This document shows, piece after piece, positions 1-64,000 of a stretch of 64,000 nt of DNA. The notes under the pieces were generated by a model, which saw only the letters and a program-made list of their open reading frames with translations, was not told where the DNA came from and made no database searches. Where the stretch lies: the NCBI GenBank assembly GCA_015178975.1, contig WHVD01000012.1, positions 1,240,001 to 1,304,000 of the forward strand, written 5' to 3'. This DNA comes from Hysterangium stoloniferum. Lineage: Eukaryota > Basidiomycota > Agaricomycetes > Hysterangiales > Hysterangiaceae. Every line of letters starts with the position of its first letter. Position 1 is the stretch's first letter. A program made the position numbers and the translations under genes.

Positions 1-143
1 TAACTGACAGGTTCTGGCATGAAAACCATGTGCCTATGTTGATTGTTTGCATTTGTTTATGTTTTTCAACATGTCATGTGATCATTCTATACAACAGTAT
101 AAGTAGAAGGGCTTTCTCAGCTAAGATTCCCTCAATTCTAACT

Positions 144-1164
144 ATGCATCCCCTTTCCACTCCTGCCCAGTATGAGATTCTTTCTCTACTTGATGCTGGC
201 CATTCTGCCAGACATATTTCAGTTTCTACTGGCTATAGTTATACTACTATCTCTAGACTTCGTTATAAACACTGTTCCCACCTTTCTAAGTCCTCTGGTG
301 GTCGTCCTTCCAAACTCTCCACAGCCAACATCCATTTTGCACAACGCCTTATCAGCTCTGGAAAGGCTGATACAGCTGTAGATGCAACAAAGGCACTTTG
401 CACTATCACCAACCAGTCACTCAATCCTCAAACAGTGTGTCGTGGACTCAAGGCAGCTGGGATGAAGCCTGTGGTAAAGAAGAAAAGGCCTCTTCTTTCT
501 AAGAGACATACATAGGAAGGAGAGGATGGATTTTGCTTTGGCACATCAGGATTGGACTGTGGAGGATTGGAAGAAGGTGGTGTGGTCTGATGAGACCAAA
601 ATTAATAGGCTGGGGTCAGATGGCAGGAAGTGGGTGTGGAAAAAGGCAGGGGAGGGCTTGAGTGACAGACTGGTTGAGGGAACCCTGAAGTTTGGTGGTG
701 GATCTTTAATGGTTTGGGGGTGCATGCTGTGGGAGGGGGTTGGGTATGCATGCAAGATTGATGGAAGGATGGATGGGGATCTCTACATCCAGATTCTGGA
801 GGACGACCTGCAAGCCAGTCTTAAAGACTATGGTAAATCTGCCAATGGTATCATCTTCCAGCAGGACAATGACCCCAAGCATACCTGCAAGAAGGCCCAG
901 AATTGGTTCCAAGAAAATGGTTTCAGGGTTCTCTCATGGCCAGCACAGTCTCCTGACTTGAATCCCATTGAACACCTATGGAATCACCTGAAGAGGAGGT
1001 TGGCAGGGTATGAGAATGCACCCCAGGGGATGGAAGAGTTGTGGGAGAGGGTGGTGGATGAATGGTACAGGATTGATGCAAAGGTGTGTCAGGATTTGAT
1101 TGAAAGTATGCCTAGGAGAGTTTCAGATGTATTAAAGGCAAAGGGTGGCTACACTAAGTACTAA
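144..1164 (+). pseudogene. Tc1-family DD34E transposase, one frame break
   Basis: The enzyme would cut and join the ends of transposon 1. The first ATG that fits the family is at 144. The N-terminal helix-turn-helix region (144-510) runs from a Q-Y-E-I-L-S-L-L helix to VVKKKRPLLSKRH. The catalytic part (526-1164) shows WSDETKIN (first Asp), QQDNDPKHT (second Asp) and SPDLNPIEHLW (Glu), with 34 residues between second Asp and Glu. It ends in LIESMPRR...KGGYTKY, the usual end of the family. The two halves lie in different frames. Around 507-514 the tetramer ACAT occurs twice in a row, and without the second copy the frame would run on as KRHRKERMDFA. This looks like a single small duplication in an otherwise whole gene, so the copy is young or recently active. 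Confidence 0.9.
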
Positions 1165-1188
1165 ATACTAGTAATTTACTGCCTAAAT

Positions 1189-1403
1189 GTGTCAGTTACA
1201 AAATGTATCCAATGAACCCTCTCCATTGAAATATTCATAGTGTTGCCATATATGGATATTATGTAATATAATTCTACCGGATAAATATATACATGATAGG
1301 TCATGTTCACAAATACTTTGGTGATTTCTACTATTTTATCCACTGGGATATAGCATATATAAGCTGAAACTACAAAACATTGGATACATTTTGTAAGTCA
1401 CTG
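1189..1403. repeat. Right terminal inverted repeat of Tc1 element 1
   Basis: The inner edge reads GTCAGTTACAAAATGTATCC and the outer edge carries its inverse, GGATACATTTTGTAAGTCAC. The whole arm could fold on itself. The same layout is seen in the other two Tc1 elements of the window. Confidence 0.75.
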
Positions 1404-34786: not shown

Positions 34787-35620
34787 ACTATTCCAACAAT
34801 ACCCTCCCATTCTAGGATATGTTCCAAGTCTTCTCTTCAACTCCCACCATAAGTGTTCTATTGGATTTAGGTCTGAAGACTGTGCATGTGAGTCTAAAAC
34901 CTCCACCTGATGGTCCTTGAACCAATCCTTGGTCAACTTGCAAGTATGTTTAGGATCATTGTCCTGCTGGAAGACAAACCTTTCCCTGTCTATCCCATAA
35001 TACTCCACTGTGTTGAAGATATAGTCCTCCAATATGTCCCTGTACATCTCCCCATCCATCCTCCCATCTACCTTGCACATGTACCCCATACCATGTGCTG
35101 TTATGCATCCCCAAATCATCAGATTCCCCCTTCCAAATTTGATAGTTCCATTGATATGCTGCTAAGTGAGTGCAGAACCTGGTCTTTTCCACACCCACAA
35201 CCTCCCATCAGAGCCCAAATGATTTATTTTGGTCTCATCTGAGAAGATAACCCTAAACCAGTCCTCCTCAGTCCAATGCTGGTACTTGACAGCAAACTCA
35301 TATTGAGCCTTGATGTGTTGGGAGGCAAGAAGGGGTCTTTTGGCCTTCACCACAACCTTCAAATTCTCTTTCTTCAATGCATTGTAAATTGTCTGTGTGC
35401 AGACATTGAGGGAGAGGTGGGACTTGGCCTGGGAGGCATTATCAACCTGTCCAGAGGTGATAGAATGAGCCAGGTGGTGATGATCCCTGGGGGAGAGCTT
35501 GGGAGGACAACCTCTGGAAGGTGTTGGAAATGGACCAGGGAGTTGGGAGTGAATTTCTGATACTGTAGAGTGCCCAATATGGAGTTTAGAAGCAAATTGT
35601 TCTGCAGGAGTGACCCTCCT

Positions 35621-36403
35621 TGTTAAGAGGTGTGCAGAGCTTATCAGAGGGTTTCTGGAGAAACCTGCAGGAAAGCCAGTAGGATGTGGCTTCAGCTTAT
35701 AGGCTCCTGAGATTGTGTTGTCCAATTTCAGACAGGTGCTCCCAGGGAGTCCAGGAGTAGTTGGTGAGTTGAGAGGTTGAGTAACTGATTGAGTTGGAGG
35801 TCAAGAGATAGATATGTAGGTCGGAGCCTGTGGGCTCTGACAGGATAAATAGCAGTGTGTTTCAAAGAGGGATAGAGCAGGAAATCTAAGCTGAGAACTT
35901 AGTTGATTTTCTGACCAGATTGTATGTACAACATTAGCTAGTTTATATAGACTGCTGAGTGTATGCAGTACCAAATCTAGTAATAATGAGATCCAAACAA
36001 GTAATCATGAAATGAGATAAGTAAATACCAAGTTTGGTGTTAGGAATGGAATAGAGTCCGAAATGTGACAGGTCATTAGACCATAATGGGAATGGAGCGG
36101 GAGCAGCATCCAAATTGTGACAGGTCATTTGTCCATAATGGGAACAGGGCTCAGTTAGAGAGCTGATGGGTTTTCTGAGCAGAGTCTGGTGACTGGTATA
36201 TGGGACAGGGTCAGAGATATGTAGACAGGAGTGGGTTCTGGTGGATATTCCGGTGACTGATACATGAAGTAATGAAGGCCAAGCATGGACATGTCTGATA
36301 TCTGGAGTCCAGCAGGTATTCCAGTAAACTGATAATTGGTGTGTGTAGGGTGTGGGTGCATATAAGTTAGTGCCCAGAGTCTGGCGGTTTTCTGGTTGTA
36401 ACA
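35621..36403. mobile_element. Solo LTR K1, 783 bp, CTCCT target duplication (fossil)
   Basis: It starts TGTTAAGAGGTGTGC and ends TGGTTGTAACA, with CTCCT at 35616-35620 and 36404-36408. It is similar over most of its length to K2 (56659-57496) and carries the shared LTR motif TGGCTTCAGCTTATAGGCT at 35688-35705. Confidence 0.85.
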
Positions 36404-53258: not shown

Positions 53259-54218
53259 CTAACTATGTTCTGCCTGTAAGAAAAATGCATGATCAGTCAC
53301 GTCTCATAATCTAGACCACTGCGCCAAGCGGCATACTCAAATGTAGTGCAACTCCACTGCAAATTCTACAGCTAAGCTACCATATTTGAAACCACAATAC
53401 TCACATGGGACTGAGAACCCTGGCCAGATATCAGCCTAGGCCACCACGAACTAAACAAGAGACGATCATGGTCCTCCTCGATCGGCCCTGCAGGATTGCC
53501 TGGCCAACAGATATCCGCATTCTGCAACGCAGGGTAGTATACTCTACCAGCATCACCTGCCCAGTCGAAGTCAACCACTTTAATGTTTGCTCTACTATTT
53601 CCCGAGCCGCCAGTGACGCGAATCACCTCGCCAGTTTCCGAGACATTAACCATAACGTTGAGGGACCACAGGTCACCATGCACCTTGCCGTTCTTTTTGA
53701 GAACGGAGAGAACTTTAGTTATCGAACGGTGTATAAGGTCTGTAGATGTAGAAGCGTTGGGAAGTGATGAGTAATCATACAATGTTTTCCAAGACGAAGG
53801 CTGAAGATATTCCATAATGTATGCCCTCGGGGCGCGAATAGGCATGGAGAGTTGGTGCGAGGTCGTGCTTAGCTAACAAATGGTGGACATCCTCCCCATA
53901 TTTCCCAGACACAAGCTTAACGAATATGGGAATCGGCTCAGCTGAAATAGCGATGAACAAAGAAGCAGAAAACAGCAAACAATTGCAGTTCTTGAAATCA
54001 AGTTTGTCTGTAAAGGTGAGGCGTCCTTGAGTATGAGCTTCTGATGGGGTGTACAACATGCAGGATGTATAAATTCGAGGAGTAAAGGGTGGAAAAATGG
54101 GAGAAGACCGTTTCTGAATCGCTAGTCTAGAAACCTGAAATGAGAAACGAGGCAGAATATAGGTTTACTAACGAACTCTTTCAGTTCATCCACGTGATTG
54201 GATAATGCATGTAGCACC

Positions 54219-54470
54219 TGTTAGATTTGGAAATACAATATCTATTAGAATGTCCAAGCTGTTATAAGTCCCTAGTTGGCAGTCCAGATGTGACTGTATA
54301 AGTCCCAAGGTAGCATCAGAAGGACTTATATAGAATATGTATATATAATCCATAATATCTCACTAGACCAATAGGTCCAGTAGCTCAGTGGTTAAGAGCA
54401 CTGCTTATATAAAGCCAGAGGTCCTTGGTTCAATCCCAGGCTGGGTCAATTGGTCTCTATACCTTTAACA
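54219..54470 (+). mobile_element. LTR-like element of 252 bp with GCACC target duplication, containing a tRNA-like sequence (fossil)
   Basis: The ends TGTTAGATTTGG and ...ATACCTTTAACA are inverted for five bases (TGTTA/TAACA). GCACC stands on both sides (54214-54218 and 54471-54475), and the kinase-like coding sequence continues on either side. This is the form of a solo LTR. What is unusual is that positions 54374-54448 fold as a tRNA. It could be a solo LTR of a small non-autonomous element whose LTR carries a Pol III unit, comparable in idea to plant Cassandra elements (5S-like LTR). The alternative is a tRNA-derived SINE, but the tRNA lies near the far end, not at the start. Confidence 0.75.
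54374..54448 (+). tRNA. tRNA-like sequence inside the LTR-like element, anticodon uncertain
   Basis: The acceptor arms GGTCCAG and CTGGGTC pair over seven positions with two G-U pairs and are followed by A. The D arm is GCTC-AGTGGTTAA-GAGC. The T arm CTTGG-TTCAATC-CCAGG pairs fully with one G-U, and the variable loop is AGGTC. A-box (TAGCTCAGTGG) and B-box (GGTTCAATCC) match Pol III promoter sequences. The anticodon arm (54401-54418) is one base too long: it pairs only with a bulged C, or with an eight-base loop. TAT (isoleucine) is one reading and ATA (tyrosine) another. So it is tRNA-derived and possibly transcribed, but probably not a working tRNA. A TTTT lies about 36 bases downstream. 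Confidence 0.6.
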
Positions 54471-55734
54471 GCACCTGAGCAAGCTTTTCGCGTCGGCCAT
54501 TGGTATAGTCTTCAAACATGATTCAAACATCTCCGAGGGGTTCTACAATGACATTTTTGCCATCATGAAAGCCACCTGCGACCAACAGCCAAGGTCCTAC
54601 GCACCATTCAGAGAGATCAGTACCAGTGCGGAAATTTTTCCATAACAAATTCACCAATGACGCAGAGCAAAAACATCGGTGCGCCCTGTTCCAAAAACAT
54701 CGGTGCGCCCTGTTCCAAAAACGCCTGCGCCCCTCTGTCTCGCAAAACTTTCACCGCAAGATCGTAACTGCGCGCTGCTTGCATGTAAGCGTCACTGGTC
54801 TCCTCTTTCATCTCACACAGTGTGATGAGGATGCCCTCTGTCAACAAAGCGCCATCGACTGTACCGTGATGTAGATCGGTCGTTGGGTTCAAGGCGTACC
54901 CTCTTTTGAATTTGTCCAAGATGCCGCAAATGCAATTGTCGAACGTGAGGGTCCTTGCGTTTTCCGGGAGATCCCGCAACTGTGGCACTGCGTTGCTGTC
55001 GTAGTCCTTAGTGGAAAAAGAGCGTCCCATTGAGGCACATAACTGCGCTGCTGCTTCCATGGCCTTGATGGCAGACTCTGATGCCTGAGGAAGGGGCATC
55101 TGAGCAGCGAGATATCGACGAAATATATCGTGGAGGGTGCACAACGGCAAACCACGGGCGTCGGGGGGACGTAAGCATAGGAGACGAGCGTCCAGGTTGG
55201 ATTGACATTGGCCCCATTTTTGGGCAAAATCGGATGGTGCAGGAAGGCAGGATAGCTTCAGCTTCTGAAGTTGGCTAAAAGACTCATATTGTTCGTTGTA
55301 CACCTGGAAAATTCGCTCTACGATTATGTTAATAGCAATCGCCACTTTCTAATGATTCAAAAGGAACAACTGACTATCATTTGAAGCCGCATGTCAAGTA
55401 TGGCCCGCCCTCTGCTCGTCCAATTACCCCCTGGGTCTTTCGCCCTATCGCATGAATAATTCCAGCAGGCCAATGTGTCTAAAAGATCATTAGCATTCTG
55501 GGGAAACATCGCTTCGACGGTTTTTTGGATCTTAGGAATGTCGTTGAGTACGTTGTCGGCTGCCTGGACAATCTGTTCGAAAAGGATATTCAGAGACTTC
55601 TGCCTTTTGTGGTATGACATGGATGAAGCCTCACTTGGATGTGAGCGTTTTGGTGACATTGTTCATGGTGGTGGACATCAAGGTTTCAAACTACGACACA
55701 AATACATGGGCGTGAGCCAAAATGGAACATTTGT

Positions 55735-56235: not shown

Positions 56236-57537
56236 GTGTACTGTATATGATATAGTAGAGATCTATATATTTATGTATATATTTGGCCTTATGACATCCT
56301 ATTTAATATTCAGTGAGTATCAGTACAATGGTTCCTCTGCATTCAATTATTCATATATTTTGCATATAGGTTGGTGGAACTAATACTATCTATTGTATGA
56401 AAATATCCCCTGAGTTGTGAGGCATAATGCTACCTTTTGAACAAGTTACACTACTCACTATCAAGTGTGCATACAGTAAGTAGCACAACTTATTCAAAAG
56501 GTGGTATTAAGCCTCACAACTCAGGTAATATTCTCATACAATAGATAGTATTAGTTCTACCAACTTATATGCAAATATATGAATAATTGAATGCAAGGGA
56601 ACCATTGCACTGATATCTCACTGAATATTAAATAGGATGTCATAAGGCCAAATATATATGTTAGAATACACACACAGGCCGGGTTTCCGGAGAAACCCAC
56701 GGGATATCCAGTAGGACTTGGCTTCAGCTTATAGGCTGCACCCTCGCTAGATCATGTTGTCCAATTTCAGACAGGTGGACGGGAATCCCGGGGAGCCCGG
56801 GCGGGGGTCGTAGGTCGTAGGTCGTAAGTCGGGGGTTGTGGGTCGTAAGTCGGAGGTCATGGATCGTGAGTCGAGATAGTTGAGAGATAGATGCACCAGA
56901 GCCCGTGGGCTCTGACTAGTGTGAGCAATGTGAATCAAGTAAGGTTTTAGAGTGGAAAATGTTATTAGATTACTGGGGGGAATCTAAGCTAATTTTCTGA
57001 CTGGATTGTATGTACAACATCTGCCAGTTTATATAGACCATGGAGTGAATGACATACCAAATCCAGTAATAATGAAATGAAACTAACAAAACATAAAACA
57101 GGAATAGTAAACACCAAATTGGTGTTAGGAACGGAACAGAACGGAGTGGAGTCCGAATCATGACAAAGCATAACCCATAACAGGAAATGGAGCAGGAGCG
57201 GAGTTCTAAATTGTGACAGGTCATTTGACTAAAACAGGAATGGGGCTCGATTAGAGCAGTGACAGGATTCTGAGCGGGGTCCGGTGACTGATGTGTAGGA
57301 CGAAGATGGACATAGACAGAGACGGAGTCTGGGGGAAGTCTGGTGACTGATGTGTGTCGTAATGAGGTCGAACGTAACTAGTCTTGACGTAATGGAGTCG
57401 GGGTGGGAAATCCTATAAACAGATGATTGGTGCTTGTAGCGTGTGGGGGTGTACGGGTTAGTGCCCAGAGTCCGGCGGGATTGTCCGGTCGTAACAATAT
57501 ACATAAATATATAGATCTCTACTATATCATATACACC
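56235..57537. repeat. Fold-back repeat with arms of about 225 bp, right arm split by solo LTR K2
   Basis: Left arm 56235-56458 and right arm 56475-56658 plus 57502-57537 are inverse copies. Examples are CCTTTTGAACAAGTTACACTACT against AGTAGCACAACTTATTCAAAAGG (in part), and TATGATATAGTAGAGATC against GATCTCTACTATATCATA. Only about 16 bases separate the arms. A transcript across it would make a long hairpin. It directly follows the minisatellite. Confidence 0.85.
56659..57496. mobile_element. Solo LTR K2, 838 bp, ATATA target duplication (fossil)
   Basis: The ends are TGTTAGAATACACAC and ...CCGGTCGTAACA, with ATATA on both sides (56654-56658, 57497-57501). It is similar to K1 (35621-36403) and has the shared LTR motif GACTTGGCTTCAGCTTATAG at 56704-56723. 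CpG is well kept, so it is younger than the fold-back it split. A GTCGTAGGTCGTAGGTCGT run occurs near 56808. Confidence 0.88.
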
Positions 57538-59136
57538 CCAAATTACTGTGTCTTAATTGGGTCCCATTCCTGATATATAGCATAATTTGTCTGTAGGTCA
57601 AAAGCAGAACTTTTTAAAAAAAATTTGAACACCATTGGTACTCAGAACAGCTGTAAATATTCTATAATGTCTTAGAAATAGTTAGAATCCTCTATAATGC
57701 TCTAGAAAATTCTAGAAAATTGTAAATGACATCATTTAATCTTCTAGAATCTTCTGAAATGTCTCAGACTAAAATGTATATAAGGAGCTCTGCTCCAGCC
57801 ATGAAATATAACTTATTATCAACCCATTTATCACCACATCTGTGTGTCACTCTTATGGATACTACAGTATACTGTATATAGTTGGAGATCAACCACGTGG
57901 CCTCTCAGTGAAGGTATCACTCACTGAGAGTATTATTTAGAACTGTGCAAATAATCTCAACAGGTTATGGGCCCTGCAGAGCCTAGTATCAAGAGCTCTG
58001 TTGTCCCAAAACTTGACTGAGATGGATCAAATTGGGTTAGCTGGAAGAACCAGATACTGATGGTACTCAGTGCTGGTAGAGGTCTAAAATGTCACCTTGA
58101 GGAAACTGCAAGGGAGCTGCTGTCACCACTGACTTTCAGGGTGAAACATGTTATGACAGAAGATGATTGGGACAAGGTCAAAGCTACAGAGCAATGACAG
58201 GATGAATTTGAACAATGCAAGGTGTATATCAAACGCCAGATCTTCATGTCCATTGAGCCAAGTCTTCAGATCGAGATTCAGAAGCTAAACACGGCCAAAG
58301 CAGTGTGGGACACATTATGCCTCAAACATGAGGATAAAGTGCTGTCAGTTAAAATTGACATCAGACATTGCATGTATGAGATGAAGTGTGAAGATGACTC
58401 AGCAGTCAAAATGCACCTCAATGAACTAATGAAAATGCAGGCCCAACTTGAGGGCATGGACACTGGTCTATATAATGATGACCTAGTCACCATTATACTT
58501 GGATCATTGCTGAAAACCTATTGACCGGTCATTAGCACAGTATCAATGTCCACGAAATTCACTGCATCACCCCTCGAGCCAAACAAAGTGGTTGAAGCCA
58601 TAATTGAAGAATATGAAAGACTCACTATTGAAGAGAAGAAGCTGAAGGCCTCTGAGACCACTATGTCAGCATCCAAGCACCATGGGAAATCTAGAAATAC
58701 ATAGAAAACAGAGAAATCCTTCGAAAATGTGGAGTGTTGGAATTGCAGGAATATGGGTCACATTTCAGCTGAATGCCAGAAACCAAAGAAGAAGGGACAA
58801 GGGAAGTGTGAATGGAAAGGAGAGAAGTCAAAAGGAAACGTGACAATGTCAAGCACAGACTTTGCTTTTACAACCACATTCTCTGGAACCATGCTATCCT
58901 GGAAAATGAGTCCACTTTGACACACTGAAGTAGATGTGTGTGATTCAGCAGCATCAAACCATATGTCCCCCAGCCACCACCATTTCATCACATTCAGAGA
59001 AACTACTCCACATCTGATAGAGGCCACTGATAAGACTGTCTTTCATGCAACTGGAATCAGGAGCATAAAAGTTGCTATGCCAAATGGAAGTTCAATGGTC
59101 AATGTGACATTGAACAATGTGCTGTATTCACCAGAC

Positions 59137-61017
59137 TGTAATGTATTTAGGGGTTTCTCTCAGATAGCTCAATAAATGCTATAGTGTCACAAAGCTTCAA
59201 CAATATAACAAGCAAAGGTCCAGTAATGTAAATACTGATAGATTAATTAGTTGGGCTATTAAGCTTAAACAACTAAAATCAATGCTTATTTTGATTATTG
59301 AAAGTTCAATAGAACTGTGTATGACTCTTTTAGCAAATAAACAGCAATTCTTTAAGAATAGGGGCTGGAAGCTGAATATATGTGCAGTAACTTGGCAGAG
59401 ACTTGATATAAAGCTTCAGTTTCTTGTCTGCTTATTTGTAACTATTAATAGATATCTAACAAGGTGTTAAATAATTTATTAACAGAGACAATAATTTGTA
59501 TGGGATTAATTGAGTGCTTGGACTTGATTAATTCAATAAACTTAGTTATGGGCCTTGAATAATCTAAGGAGGGTGTTTATAATTACTATAATCTCAAATA
59601 TTTACTAATAAAAGTCTTATTTTTACAAAACTCCATCTTTAAATAGTGATATCTATTCTGAAACAATTATATCATCAAAAAACAACCATCAGAAATAGTT
59701 CTCCATATTACATCTTATGCAACCCATAGTTATATAACAAATTCCATTGTATATAATTTCCTTCCTTTTACAGATGCCTACTAATACTTTTATTAGTACT
59801 TTGTTTTTTAAAAGCTGTAATGTAGTTATTTCCATGTAAAATATGTAAAATATTATTGGAATTTTTTCATACCACAGCTGTCTTTATAAGTGAAACCCCC
59901 TATATATTCTGGGTATGTTGAGTAGAAATCTGTTCAGATTGACAGATCCATTCCAAAGTAATACATATGTATATATTTAGAGGTATCAATGATATACATA
60001 TGCATGGAATGGACTATCTAAAGGTATCTATTTTTTACAAGTATTAGTGTTTCAAACTACTAATTTTTTTTATTGTCTACTTGTGTCTGGAAAGATTCTT
60101 TAGTTTGTACAAGAGAGTTTAAAACTTTCAAAAAGTTTTAAAAACCAAATTATGTTTGAATCACATCCCAGATGTTTAAATGACCTTTAGAGTATATTAG
60201 AATTTGGTATACTTAATAGTTTTCAGATATCCTCCTAAGTGTTGGCAGGGATTTCAGTAAGAATACTTATTAGGTTTATTATGTATTTAATAAGCCTAAG
60301 GGGTAGCTGTGAGGCTGGGGGACTTAGATGATTAGCTAAGTTCAAGAGTGCTGACAAAGAGTTCTAGATTCTGCAAGTGTAGGTGCTTGCAGTTAGTATA
60401 TCAGACTAAGGCTATTATTGTCCTTAGGATGATGAGATAAGTTTCTGAGCTGTGCTGTAAAATATGTATATGATAAGTTATTTTATTGTGGATTTCTGGC
60501 CCTCCTTATATACATTTTGATAACTAATTATTTCACTGTTTAAATATTTTATGATATCATTACTGACTCAGTAATGATATCATGTTTAACTATTCATTAC
60601 CCTTTTTCTATTCTATGACTCCTATGTCTGAGACAAGGGTTCCAATCTAAGCCTGAACTTGAAGGTTCAGAGGCCAAGATCTGGGATGGAAGCAAATGCC
60701 AGTAACTTGAGCCTTTGAAGTTGACTTAAGTAACAGGTCACATGACACCAAAAATGTGCACAAGGAGTAAGGCAATGTGCCGGGAAGCAATAACTAAGTA
60801 AATAAAAGATAAATAATTAGTTAAAAAATTATATAATAAATTAAATAAGATATAATAGCATTATATGAACTATATGCTATTATTATATGAAGTTAAAAGG
60901 AACTAGGCCTTAGATTTCACAATAAAAATATAATAAAAATACAATAAATTCGAAAAAAATACTAATTAATTCAAAGAAAATTAAGAGAATTTCATGAGAT
61001 AATACTGGTACCTCACA
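59137..61017. mobile_element. Solo LTR S2 in the copia element, CAGAC target duplication (fossil)
   Basis: The ends are TGTAATGTATTTAGGGG and ...GGTACCTCACA, with CAGAC on both sides (59132-59136 and 61018-61022). The copia protein words run on over the junction (NNVLYSPD before; then AFTLISLACCDKSGY). Without the B3 insertion it is about 1210 bp, close to S1 at 39453-40669, which it matches in inverse orientation. Confidence 0.88.
59569..60234 (-). mobile_element. GAGG-ended 0.67-kb element, copy B3, CTAAG target duplication
   Basis: The inverse copy of B1 and B2: GAGGGTGTTTATAATTAC at the left and ...CAGATATCCTC at the right, with CTAAG on both sides (59564-59568 and 60235-60239). It is the third independent insertion with a 5-bp duplication, which fixes the ends of the family. 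Confidence 0.85.
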
Positions 61018-64000
61018 CAGACCTAGCCTTCACACTGATCTCACTTGCTTGCTGTGACAAATCAGGTTACTCAGCACTGCTAAAAATCGGAGGTGTACAA
61101 TCAGGGACCCAGATGGAAAGCTCATTGGTGAAATCCTCCTTGCTGACAATGGTCTATACAAGGTGGAGCACAAGACATGCCATAGTACCACAAATGTGAC
61201 CTCAAAGAAAATGTCAATTGATGAATTGCACCGACAACTGGAGTACATTGAACCCAATGCAGCAAAGAAATCAGTTCAGGATGGTCATATCCTCTGGATA
61301 GACCTGGACTTATCTAGTGAGCCAATGTTTTGTACAGCATGCATACAGGCCAAAATTATATGACTGCTTATACCAAAGGAATGCACCAGTGAAATTGCAG
61401 CAAATGTTGGCAATAAAGTCCACTCATATGTATGGGGTTTTGCAAATCCTGAGAGCTATGATGCAAAAACATACTTTGCCAGTTATACAGATGATAAAAC
61501 CTGGTGGTCATTGCTTGCCATGTTAGGACAGAAAAATCACGCATTTCAAGCCTATAAAGAATATGAAGCATGGGTTAGTATACAATATAATGGAAAAATA
61601 AATATACTGCAGACAGACCAAGGTGGTGAATACTTATTGAATGTATTCACTGAATATCTAAAATCTCAGGGAATGGAACACCAATTGACGGTACACAACA
61701 CACCTCAACAGAATGGCATATCTGAGCAACTAACTCGCACCTTATTAGAACATGTTCATGCCATGACTATCGCCACAAACTTGCCAAATGTTTTATGGAC
61801 CGAAGCCATAAAACATGTGACCTGGCTTAAAAACTGCACTTCAATAAGTACTCTAGATGGATGTACCCCCTACCAAATCTGGGAAACATTCCTGAGTGAG
61901 GTGTGAAAGTTTGGGTATTCAAGGAAGAATGCAGGAAACTGGAAGCAAAAGTGGACAAAGGATGTTGGGTCAGATTCAGCGATGAAAGCAAGGGCCACCA
62001 TATTTATTGGCCTGGGAAACACTGCATTACAGTTGAGTGTAACATCAGATTCAATGAATCGACCACTGTTGTTTTAGATGATGTACAGGCTGAGGGAGGG
62101 AATATGATCTCAGACAGCCAGAACACCACACAAACTGACATACCCATACCAACAACCACCAATCCCAAATGACACCCAGCATGCCCAAATTGACCCGCTA
62201 GAAGATTTCAAAGAGACAGAAACACCCAGATGAGGACAAAGAATATGGAAACCATCAGCATATACATTCCTGAAAGGAATGCCAGTACCCCCCGAAACAC
62301 CTCAAAAAAAATTGATGTGAGATGTTGCAGCTGTTGCAGCAATGATGAAAATCAATGATCAACTGAAAAGGGAGATAAATGAAGACTTACTGGCATCTCA
62401 ACATCATTTGAGAATGCAATGGCAATAATCATACATGATATTGATGAACTGCCAGTGAATGTTGCAGAAGCGAAGTCTCGAAGTGATTGGCCATAGTGGA
62501 AAATGTCACTTGAGAAGGAAATGCAGCATCATGTAGATGCTGGCACATAGGAACTTGTTGAACCACAAAAAGGTATGAATGTCATAGGGAGCAAAGTCAT
62601 CATGTGATACACACATGGTTCAAATGGTGAGATCACGGCTTACAAGTCTAGGTTCGTAGTGCAAGGGTTCTCTCAGCAAGAAGGCATAGACTATAACAAA
62701 ATGTTCTCATCTACCACAAAATTGACCACTATCTGCATTATCGCTGCCATTGCCACACGGAATGACTGGGAACTCGAACAAACAGACATTGATGCTGCAT
62801 ATCTCAATGCACCTCTTACCGAAATGATCTACATGAGGCAGCCAAAAGGACTTGAGGTTCCAGGAAAAGAGCATATGGTATACTTGCTCAAACACATGAT
62901 ATATGGATTGAAACAAGCCAGCCATGAGTGGTATCAACACCTTTGTGGTATCATGTTCCAGATTGGATTCACCCAATGCCAAGTCAAACATGCAGTCTTC
63001 TATAGGTATACTGATGAAACTGCATTAATTGTTGCAGTTGACATCAACGATATGACCATGGCAGGAAACTTGAAAGACATTATCTTGAAGTTGGAGAGCG
63101 AACTCCAACAGGAATTCAAAATAAAGGATCTTGGTGAACTCAAGTGGCTCTTTGAGATTGAAGTCAAACACAATTGCACAGCTTGAACAATATTGTTTTT
63201 GCAACACTTGTATATTGATGAGATCATCACATGATTTGGCCTACAGGATGCAAAGCCATTATCAACCCCCCTTGACCCCCATCACTGTCTTTCCCTCTCA
63301 CAATCACCCAGCACACCACATCAGCTTGAAGAAATGTGCAATGTACCCTATTGCAAGGTGATAGGATCCCTTATGTATGCAGCACTTGGTACATGCCCAG
63401 ACATAATGTTTGCAATATCTTTCCTTGCAAAATTTATGCAAAAACCCAGTCAGCCGCACTGGGAAGCTGTAAAAAGGGTCTTCAGATACCTGAAAGGGAC
63501 AAGAGACCAATGGCTGGTATTCAGAGAAAGGCAAAATGACTCATGAAATGCACTCGAGGGTTTCACCCATGCAGATTGGGGCACACAAGAGCATAGACAT
63601 TCAATCTCAGGCTATATTTTTACCACAGACAGAGGCACCATCTCATGGAGCTTGAAAAGCAATCTATTGTTGTGTTATCAATGACAGAGGTGGAATATAT
63701 AGCTGCGACTCACGCTACAAAGGAAGCTCTATGGATTCAAGCATTCATAGCCAAAATTGCCTGTTCACTTACTAGCCCTATCACAATCTATTGCCATAAT
63801 CAAACTGCCATATTGATTGTAAAAAATGATGAGTTCCATGCATGCACCAAGCACATTAATATTCAATACCACTTTATTCGTGACATCACCAATAAGCAGC
63901 TGGTGTTGATCCACTATGTATCCACAGATGATAACCCTGCTGATATGCTAACGAAGCCATTAGCCAGACCAAAGGTTGAAAGGTTCTCATACCTCATTGG

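Follow-up and report, generated by a model that had tools for sequence, protein, structure and literature searches.

Helenus elements are TRIMs whose LTRs contain tRNA-derived sequence, a class named by Kojima 2024 (PMC10886601). In the accessible part of that paper, Helenus (TRIMp3) is reported from rusts and Agaricomycetes, with box A defined as TRGCY plus YGG and box B as GGTTC. Coprinopsis cinerea, a laboratory Agaricomycete, is reported to carry Helenus. The fungal members mostly use a PBS matching the anticodon loop of iMet, and are described with 5-bp duplications and Copia mobilisation; half-tRNA priming is reported there for most of them, and other work is cited for it in Ty5 and Drosophila Copia. 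A 2026 meeting report, in its accessible part, also mentions Helenus. Here, we describe an LTR in a 64-kb window (the whole stretch of DNA analysed; GC 40%) that belongs to a Helenus-type TRIM, matched to published Helenus by description and not by sequence, and whose family may already be among the published ones.

Results

A solo LTR with a tRNA-like unit

The LTR occupies 54219-54470 on the forward strand. It starts with TGTTAG, ends with TTAACA and lies between two copies of the target-site duplication GCACC (54214-54218 and 54471-54475), so that all the solo-LTR marks listed in an earlier note on this DNA (TG...CA, TGTTA/TAACA ends, 5-bp duplication) can be read in the sequence. The tRNA fold with A and B boxes proposed in that note was also recovered: both ARAGORN and Rfam call a tRNA at 54374-54448 (+), with an abnormal anticodon arm. 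The Rfam tRNA model RF00005, which the window copy matches along its entire length, scores 45.4 bits (gathering score 29; E 8.2e-9) and is the sole family found at E<=1 in 54200-54490, with no 5S match. The box A-like TAGCTCAGTGG (54381-54391, +) and the box B-like GGTTCAATCCC (54427-54437, +) agree with the Helenus definition and are the same in the majority sequences of two families in this genome, family A, to which the window copy belongs, and family B. A TATA-like block, TATATATAAT (54340-54349, +), lies 24 nt upstream of the tRNA-like part. Bacterial promoter and ORF scans gave nothing informative. A functional cellular tRNA gene is disfavoured, as ARAGORN assigns no proper anticodon to the family A copies that it reports and calls most family B copies 'Tyr (ata)'.

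Elsewhere in the window, Pfam searches of nine frames found only Tc/mariner-type transposase pieces above cut-off (DDE_3; HTH_Tnp_Tc3_2), at 481-1161 (+) and 35165-35800 (-).

Family A is a repeated LTR family with precise ends

In the genome from which the window comes (554 contigs, 111 Mb in all), the 252-base element has at least 45 matches (best 40 of 309 candidates scored). Allowing up to 3 mismatches, the first 40 bases of the LTR occur 51 times genome-wide and the first 28 bases of the tRNA part 309 times, with no occurrence of either reversed control. Forty-two full-length LTR copies were aligned; three matches, located in L012 and L013, were set aside as partial. All 42 start with TGTTA, 41 end with TTAACA and one with TTGACA, and their lengths range from 244 to 258 bp. 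They come from 39 loci, comprising 33 solo LTRs, four two-LTR elements and two chimeras. The 5-bp duplication is perfect at 30 of the 33 solo loci, with two others at 4/5 and one at 2/5, while shuffled pairing of the flanks gave 0.99 perfect duplications on average and never more than 6. Two of the 30 perfect loci, L041 and L043, have common flanks and are probably a single insertion duplicated along with its surroundings.

Since the aligned copies include the tRNA part, the chance insertion of a tRNA into one LTR, which the earlier note had weighed, is ruled out; capture of a tRNA by a single LTR is rejected on the same grounds, together with the 309 genome matches to the first 28 bases. None of the 42 copies starts at the tRNA or has a poly(A) or simple tail in its 15-base 3' flank, so that an ordinary SINE, the other possibility raised there, fails as well.

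The window copy is an atypical member of its family. At 252 bp it is 3 bp shorter than the common form, and 34 of the 42 copies measure 253-257 bp. It has lost family A's only T4 run, a putative Pol III terminator that is kept in 36 of the 42 copies and whose site falls at 54449-54457 (+). It also carries ATTGGTCTC in place of ATTCTTTTC, which is found in 31 of the 42; at this site, six other family A copies have variants and four were not parsed. Three clustered substitutions have created ATTGGTCT (54449-54456), present in none of the other aligned family A copies and the exact reverse complement of AGACCAAT (54365-54372), so that a perfect 8-bp inverted repeat brackets the tRNA part. Judging from this pattern, the three substitutions and the removal of the T4 run look like one template-switch event.

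Complete elements reveal the internal part and primer site

Paired LTRs in direct repeat, which the earlier note proposed to look for, are present on contigs C96, C518, C521 and C475. The four elements (L009, L010, L011 and L012) consist of LTR, 66 bp and LTR, amounting to ~576 bp without coding capacity; L009, for instance, reads 255+66+255 bp, with two direct LTRs in under 1000 bp. All four have perfect duplications (CATGT, CAACA, GGTAA and TGACC, respectively), which, with the solo loci, bears out the note's expectation of 5-bp duplications at other copies. In the three elements with both LTRs intact, the pairs differ at only 0/255, 2/254 and 3/250 positions and, on this measure, some family A insertions are recent. 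In L012, the second LTR is interrupted at 594-1178, where an LTR-like sequence of 585 bp (TGTTA...TAACA) has inserted and is itself flanked by a CATCA duplication.

In the 66-bp internal part, GGTTATGGGCCCCG directly follows the 5' LTR and AGGGGAAG, by its motif a polypurine tract, stands just before the 3' LTR. The former is complementary over 14/14 nt to nucleotides 26-39 of L122, a tRNA-Met(CAT) gene in this genome that we take from its sequence to be the initiator tRNA. In Drosophila Copia, the primer is a 39-nt 5' tRNA fragment. A short pattern derived from the PBS occurs at 19 places in the genome, and among the eight fetched one is a tRNA; a longer pattern for the primer tRNA had no match. 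The 15-mer ACAGGTTATGGGCCC, which joins the LTR end to the primer site, has 799 exact copies genome-wide (390+409; reversed control 0).

A tRNA-derived SINE mobilised by a LINE would account for the tRNA unit and the short length. This reading has practically no chance given the exact LTR ends, the fixed 5-bp duplications, the primer site and polypurine tract and the absence of a tail in the printed 3' flanks of the 42 copies, and we rejected it, the two-LTR copies already refuting it.

A proposed cycle for the element

We consider it highly probable that 54219-54470 is a solo LTR produced by LTR-LTR recombination of a ~576-bp non-autonomous Helenus-type TRIM with the following cycle. TFIIIC and TFIIIB would bind the two boxes as well as the TATA-like block ahead of them. 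Pol III would start near the 5' end of the tRNA, pass the weak T4 of the 5' LTR and the 66-bp part, and end at the T4 of the 3' LTR. With such a start and stop, the tRNA-like stretch would form the R region at both ends of the RNA. The RNA would then be packaged into a Copia particle, where the 5' half of tRNA-iMet (to nt 39), whose complementarity is seen, may prime cDNA synthesis at GGTTATGGGCCCCG, and the second strand may be primed from AGGGGAAG. Copia integrase is the presumed enzyme for an insertion that leaves the observed 5-bp duplication, and most family A insertions, accounting for 33 of 39 fetched loci, would later have collapsed into solo LTRs.

Pol III transcription of the element is predicted from sequence, and several points count against it or against the cycle. 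Full-length RNA requires read-through, since the 5' LTR carries the T4 run too; the TATA-like block is equally usable by Pol II; and the tRNA fold could attract RNase P/Z processing. Families A and B have different anticodon arms. Mismatches within family A are about as frequent in box A (16/462) as in the upstream LTR (222/6636; 3.35%), and only box B has fewer (3/462; 0.65%). Conservation of the boxes above the rest, which the earlier note proposed to look for, thus holds within this family for box B and fails for box A. The exact box A string is found in 37 of the 42 copies and the exact box B string in 39; among the five copies without the former are both LTRs of L011.

Family B shares the tRNA boxes while its upstream LTR has diverged

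We found family B through relatives of the internal region with 83-86% identity; its LTR is mostly 251 bp long. Perfect duplications flank seven of the eight units lying wholly within the fetched stretches (L066, L067, two in L071, the inner unit of L073, L076 and the array in L072), the exception being L070; L068, L074 and the broken outer unit of L073 were left unscored. The L072 array (122-1324, minus strand; C4:59600-61000) comprises four LTRs of family B plus three internal parts, the latter of two distinct types, with GGTTG around the whole. In L073, a family B element (~830-1400; duplication AGAGC) has inserted into another copy of its own family, within the tRNA part.

The majority LTRs of the two families are identical at 75/121 positions upstream (62%), 20/22 columns around the TATA-like block, 13/18 from there to the tRNA, 66/76 in the tRNA part, where the differences are confined to the anticodon arm, and 21/22 in the tail. 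Each has a single TTTT, just 3' of the tRNA, and the 66-bp internal part of family A has none. When the family A unit was shuffled 5000 times, a single T4 fell within 10 nt of the observed place in 0.86% of cases.

These data bear on two other readings of the tRNA-like part. The element could be a TRIM that Pol II transcribes, starting from its TATA-like block; the tRNA-like part would then be a passenger that came in with a captured SINE and is kept only because LTRs are copied whole. The position of TATATATAAT 24 nt upstream of the tRNA start, in a well-conserved block, speaks for this, as do the lack of special box A conservation within family A, the absence of the exact box A string from both LTRs of the young L011 and the abnormal anticodon arm. 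A passenger, however, fits poorly with a tRNA part that is unchanged between the families outside the anticodon arm while the upstream LTR is 62% identical, with the low mismatch rate of box B relative to the upstream LTR and with a single T4 directly 3' of the tRNA, and we judge this reading unlikely. Alternatively, the fold might not be a promoter and might instead help to package or stabilise the RNA or to target integration. The end-to-end fit of the window copy to the Rfam tRNA model and the sameness of the tRNA part outside the anticodon arm would agree with such a role, but the anticodon arm itself is not preserved and the unchanged parts include both promoter boxes, which makes it quite improbable.

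We compared the family B tRNA part with ARAGORN tRNAs from 30 loci among the 62 matches listed (best 63 of 5384 candidates scored). Two tRNA-Cys(GCA) genes tie for the best score at 26.5, with tRNA-Met at 25.5, and at L099 the first 18 nt are identical to the family B tRNA part while the 3' half fits less well. As judged from these scores, tRNA-Cys as the source is a weak lead. The fetched tRNA loci also include many intron-bearing tRNA-Lys(CTT) genes (such as L102, L105 and L117), an unusual expansion of a single gene located at C112 0.99-1.22 Mb, C68, C410, C290, C61 and C183, partly in tandem units of ~400-430 bp with diverged copies.

Helenus and Copia are joined at a common primer site

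The 15-mer ACAGGTTATGGGCCC occurs once in the window, at 57960-57974 (primer site itself 57962-57973). It belongs to a degenerate Copia at ~57500-64000 that has an iMet half-tRNA primer site and an RVT_2 (RT) piece at 62608-63183; no LTR-marking direct repeat was found for it within 57300-64000. Elsewhere in the genome, L082 is an intact-looking Copia, hereafter Copia X, with a single 1377-aa frame, gag and RT domains and LTRs that are 99.7% alike. Such an element speaks in favour of the proposed cycle; its integrase core, which lies just below the Pfam cut-off (32.4 vs 32.6 bits), counts against it.

At six loci, Helenus is joined to a Copia LTR at the common primer site, and a seventh has a foreign LTR, Y. 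In L065, L075 and L127, an X LTR (90-93% to L082 in L065 and L075) is joined to the internal part and 3' LTR of family B. In L069, the place of the X LTR is taken by an LTR of 47 bp, which matches X in its last 40 bases and has no other occurrence in the genome when up to 3 mismatches are allowed. In L064, an LTR of Copia Z (307 bp; 87% to L079/L080 across 312 aligned columns) is joined to an internal part of family A with an LTR stub of 22 bp. L077 and L078 each have a unit of internal part plus LTR from family A, with a foreign LTR on one side and a second primer site on the other. This foreign LTR is Z in L077, by its last 83 bases, and Y in L078, where it was not assigned to Copia. The first primer site of L077 is the variant GGTTATGGACACC, and the sequence beyond its unit resembles the internal part of Copia Z (73-74% over 368 columns). 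Among the loci looked at, B is thus paired with X four times, A with Z twice and A with Y once; these counts are not a rate, since L127 was fetched for its adjacent hits and the internal-part matches are the best 40 of 79 candidates.

A 5-bp duplication surrounds the entire chimera at four of the seven loci (GATTT in L065, GGTTG in L069, AAAGA in L127 and ACCCC in L064); L075 lacks one. Under the standard model of replication, each cycle rebuilds both LTRs, so a duplication-flanked chimera would have formed in the last cycle, with both element types in one particle and strand transfer at the common primer site. LTR retrotransposons are known to switch templates, for which PMC7215508 cites Sabot and Schulman 2007. 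The chimeras may instead stem from ectopic recombination of genomic copies, for which the 799 copies of the 15-mer offer ample homology; L077 and L078 recall the outcome of recombination with a one-LTR circle, and L075 lacks a matching duplication. Duplications around whole chimeras, as in L064, L065, L069 and L127, nevertheless require one integration event, and ectopic exchange would give different flanks, so that we regard recombination of genomic copies as fairly unlikely. Joint replication in Copia particles is what the chimeras appear to reflect and, together with the common PBS, they support mobilisation of Helenus by Copia, as far as sequence can indicate.

Nine contigs (C14, C35, C60, C109, C137, C182, C514, C534 and C543) are rich in family B and Copia X but not in family A. 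These contigs (3.34 Mb, 3.0% of the genome), which were chosen post hoc and could be centromeric, hold 50 of the 64 family B rows listed and 22 of the 41 long Copia X rows listed, counts that exclude 8 short inner Copia X matches and derive from the best 40 of 508 and of 248 candidates, respectively, biased to the query's own subfamily. They hold just 2 of the 51 family A starts, a complete count. This distribution would fit partner choice. We tentatively propose that TRIMs and Copia elements with the same iMet half-tRNA primer site swap LTRs by strand transfer at that site within shared particles, with family-specific partners (X for B, on the same contigs; Z or Y for the dispersed A), a possibility that we would sooner doubt than affirm.

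Discussion

The clean, young family A confirms the Helenus design. The earlier note was right to read an LTR with a tRNA-type unit, but the class that it thought would be notable is not new, Helenus having been described in 2024, including from Agaricomycetes. The Copia chimeras are the fresh part: to the accessible main text of 2024 they add links between individual Helenus families and individual Copia partners. Literature searches on fungal tRNA TRIMs, Helenus, chimeric TRIM/LTR elements and Pol III LTRs returned no other description among what were mostly titles. If LTR exchange occurs, TRIMs could acquire or shed complete LTRs through it, the tRNA promoter included, without a SINE having to insert into an LTR. 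As the standard model has both LTRs rebuilt every cycle, each duplication-flanked chimera should be recent evidence that the RNAs of two elements were in one particle. If this is right, which Copia moves which TRIM could be tested from sequence alone.

The elements share with Helenus, as far as the accessible text describes it, an abnormal tRNA-like sequence within the LTRs of a short non-coding element, a PBS on the anticodon half of tRNA-iMet, a polypurine tract, 5-bp duplications, a Copia link and many solo LTRs; tandem arrays are noted there for a zebrafish Helenus family (PMC10886601). They depart from that account in the Copia-LTR chimeras at the primer site ('chimer' has 0 occurrences in the main text of PMC10886601) and in having tRNA-Cys as the closest cellular tRNA compared ('tRNA-Cys' has 0 in the accessible text). 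Cassandra, a plant TRIM, likewise has a Pol III promoter (predicted here) and terminator within the LTR and tandem LTR-internal arrays, according to the accessible part of PMC7215508; where Cassandra has 5S rRNA, the LTRs here carry a tRNA-like sequence. The nemertean TRIM Ajax, from the part of its description available, has the same TRIMp3 design and 5-bp duplication but a 5S-derived promoter and a tRNA-Leu 3'-end primer. With tRNA-derived SINEs (SINE2), finally, our families have in common a tRNA-derived Pol III promoter (predicted here) in a short non-coding repeat, and they differ from them in their LTR-type ends, fixed 5-bp duplications, two-LTR copies and absence of a visible tail.
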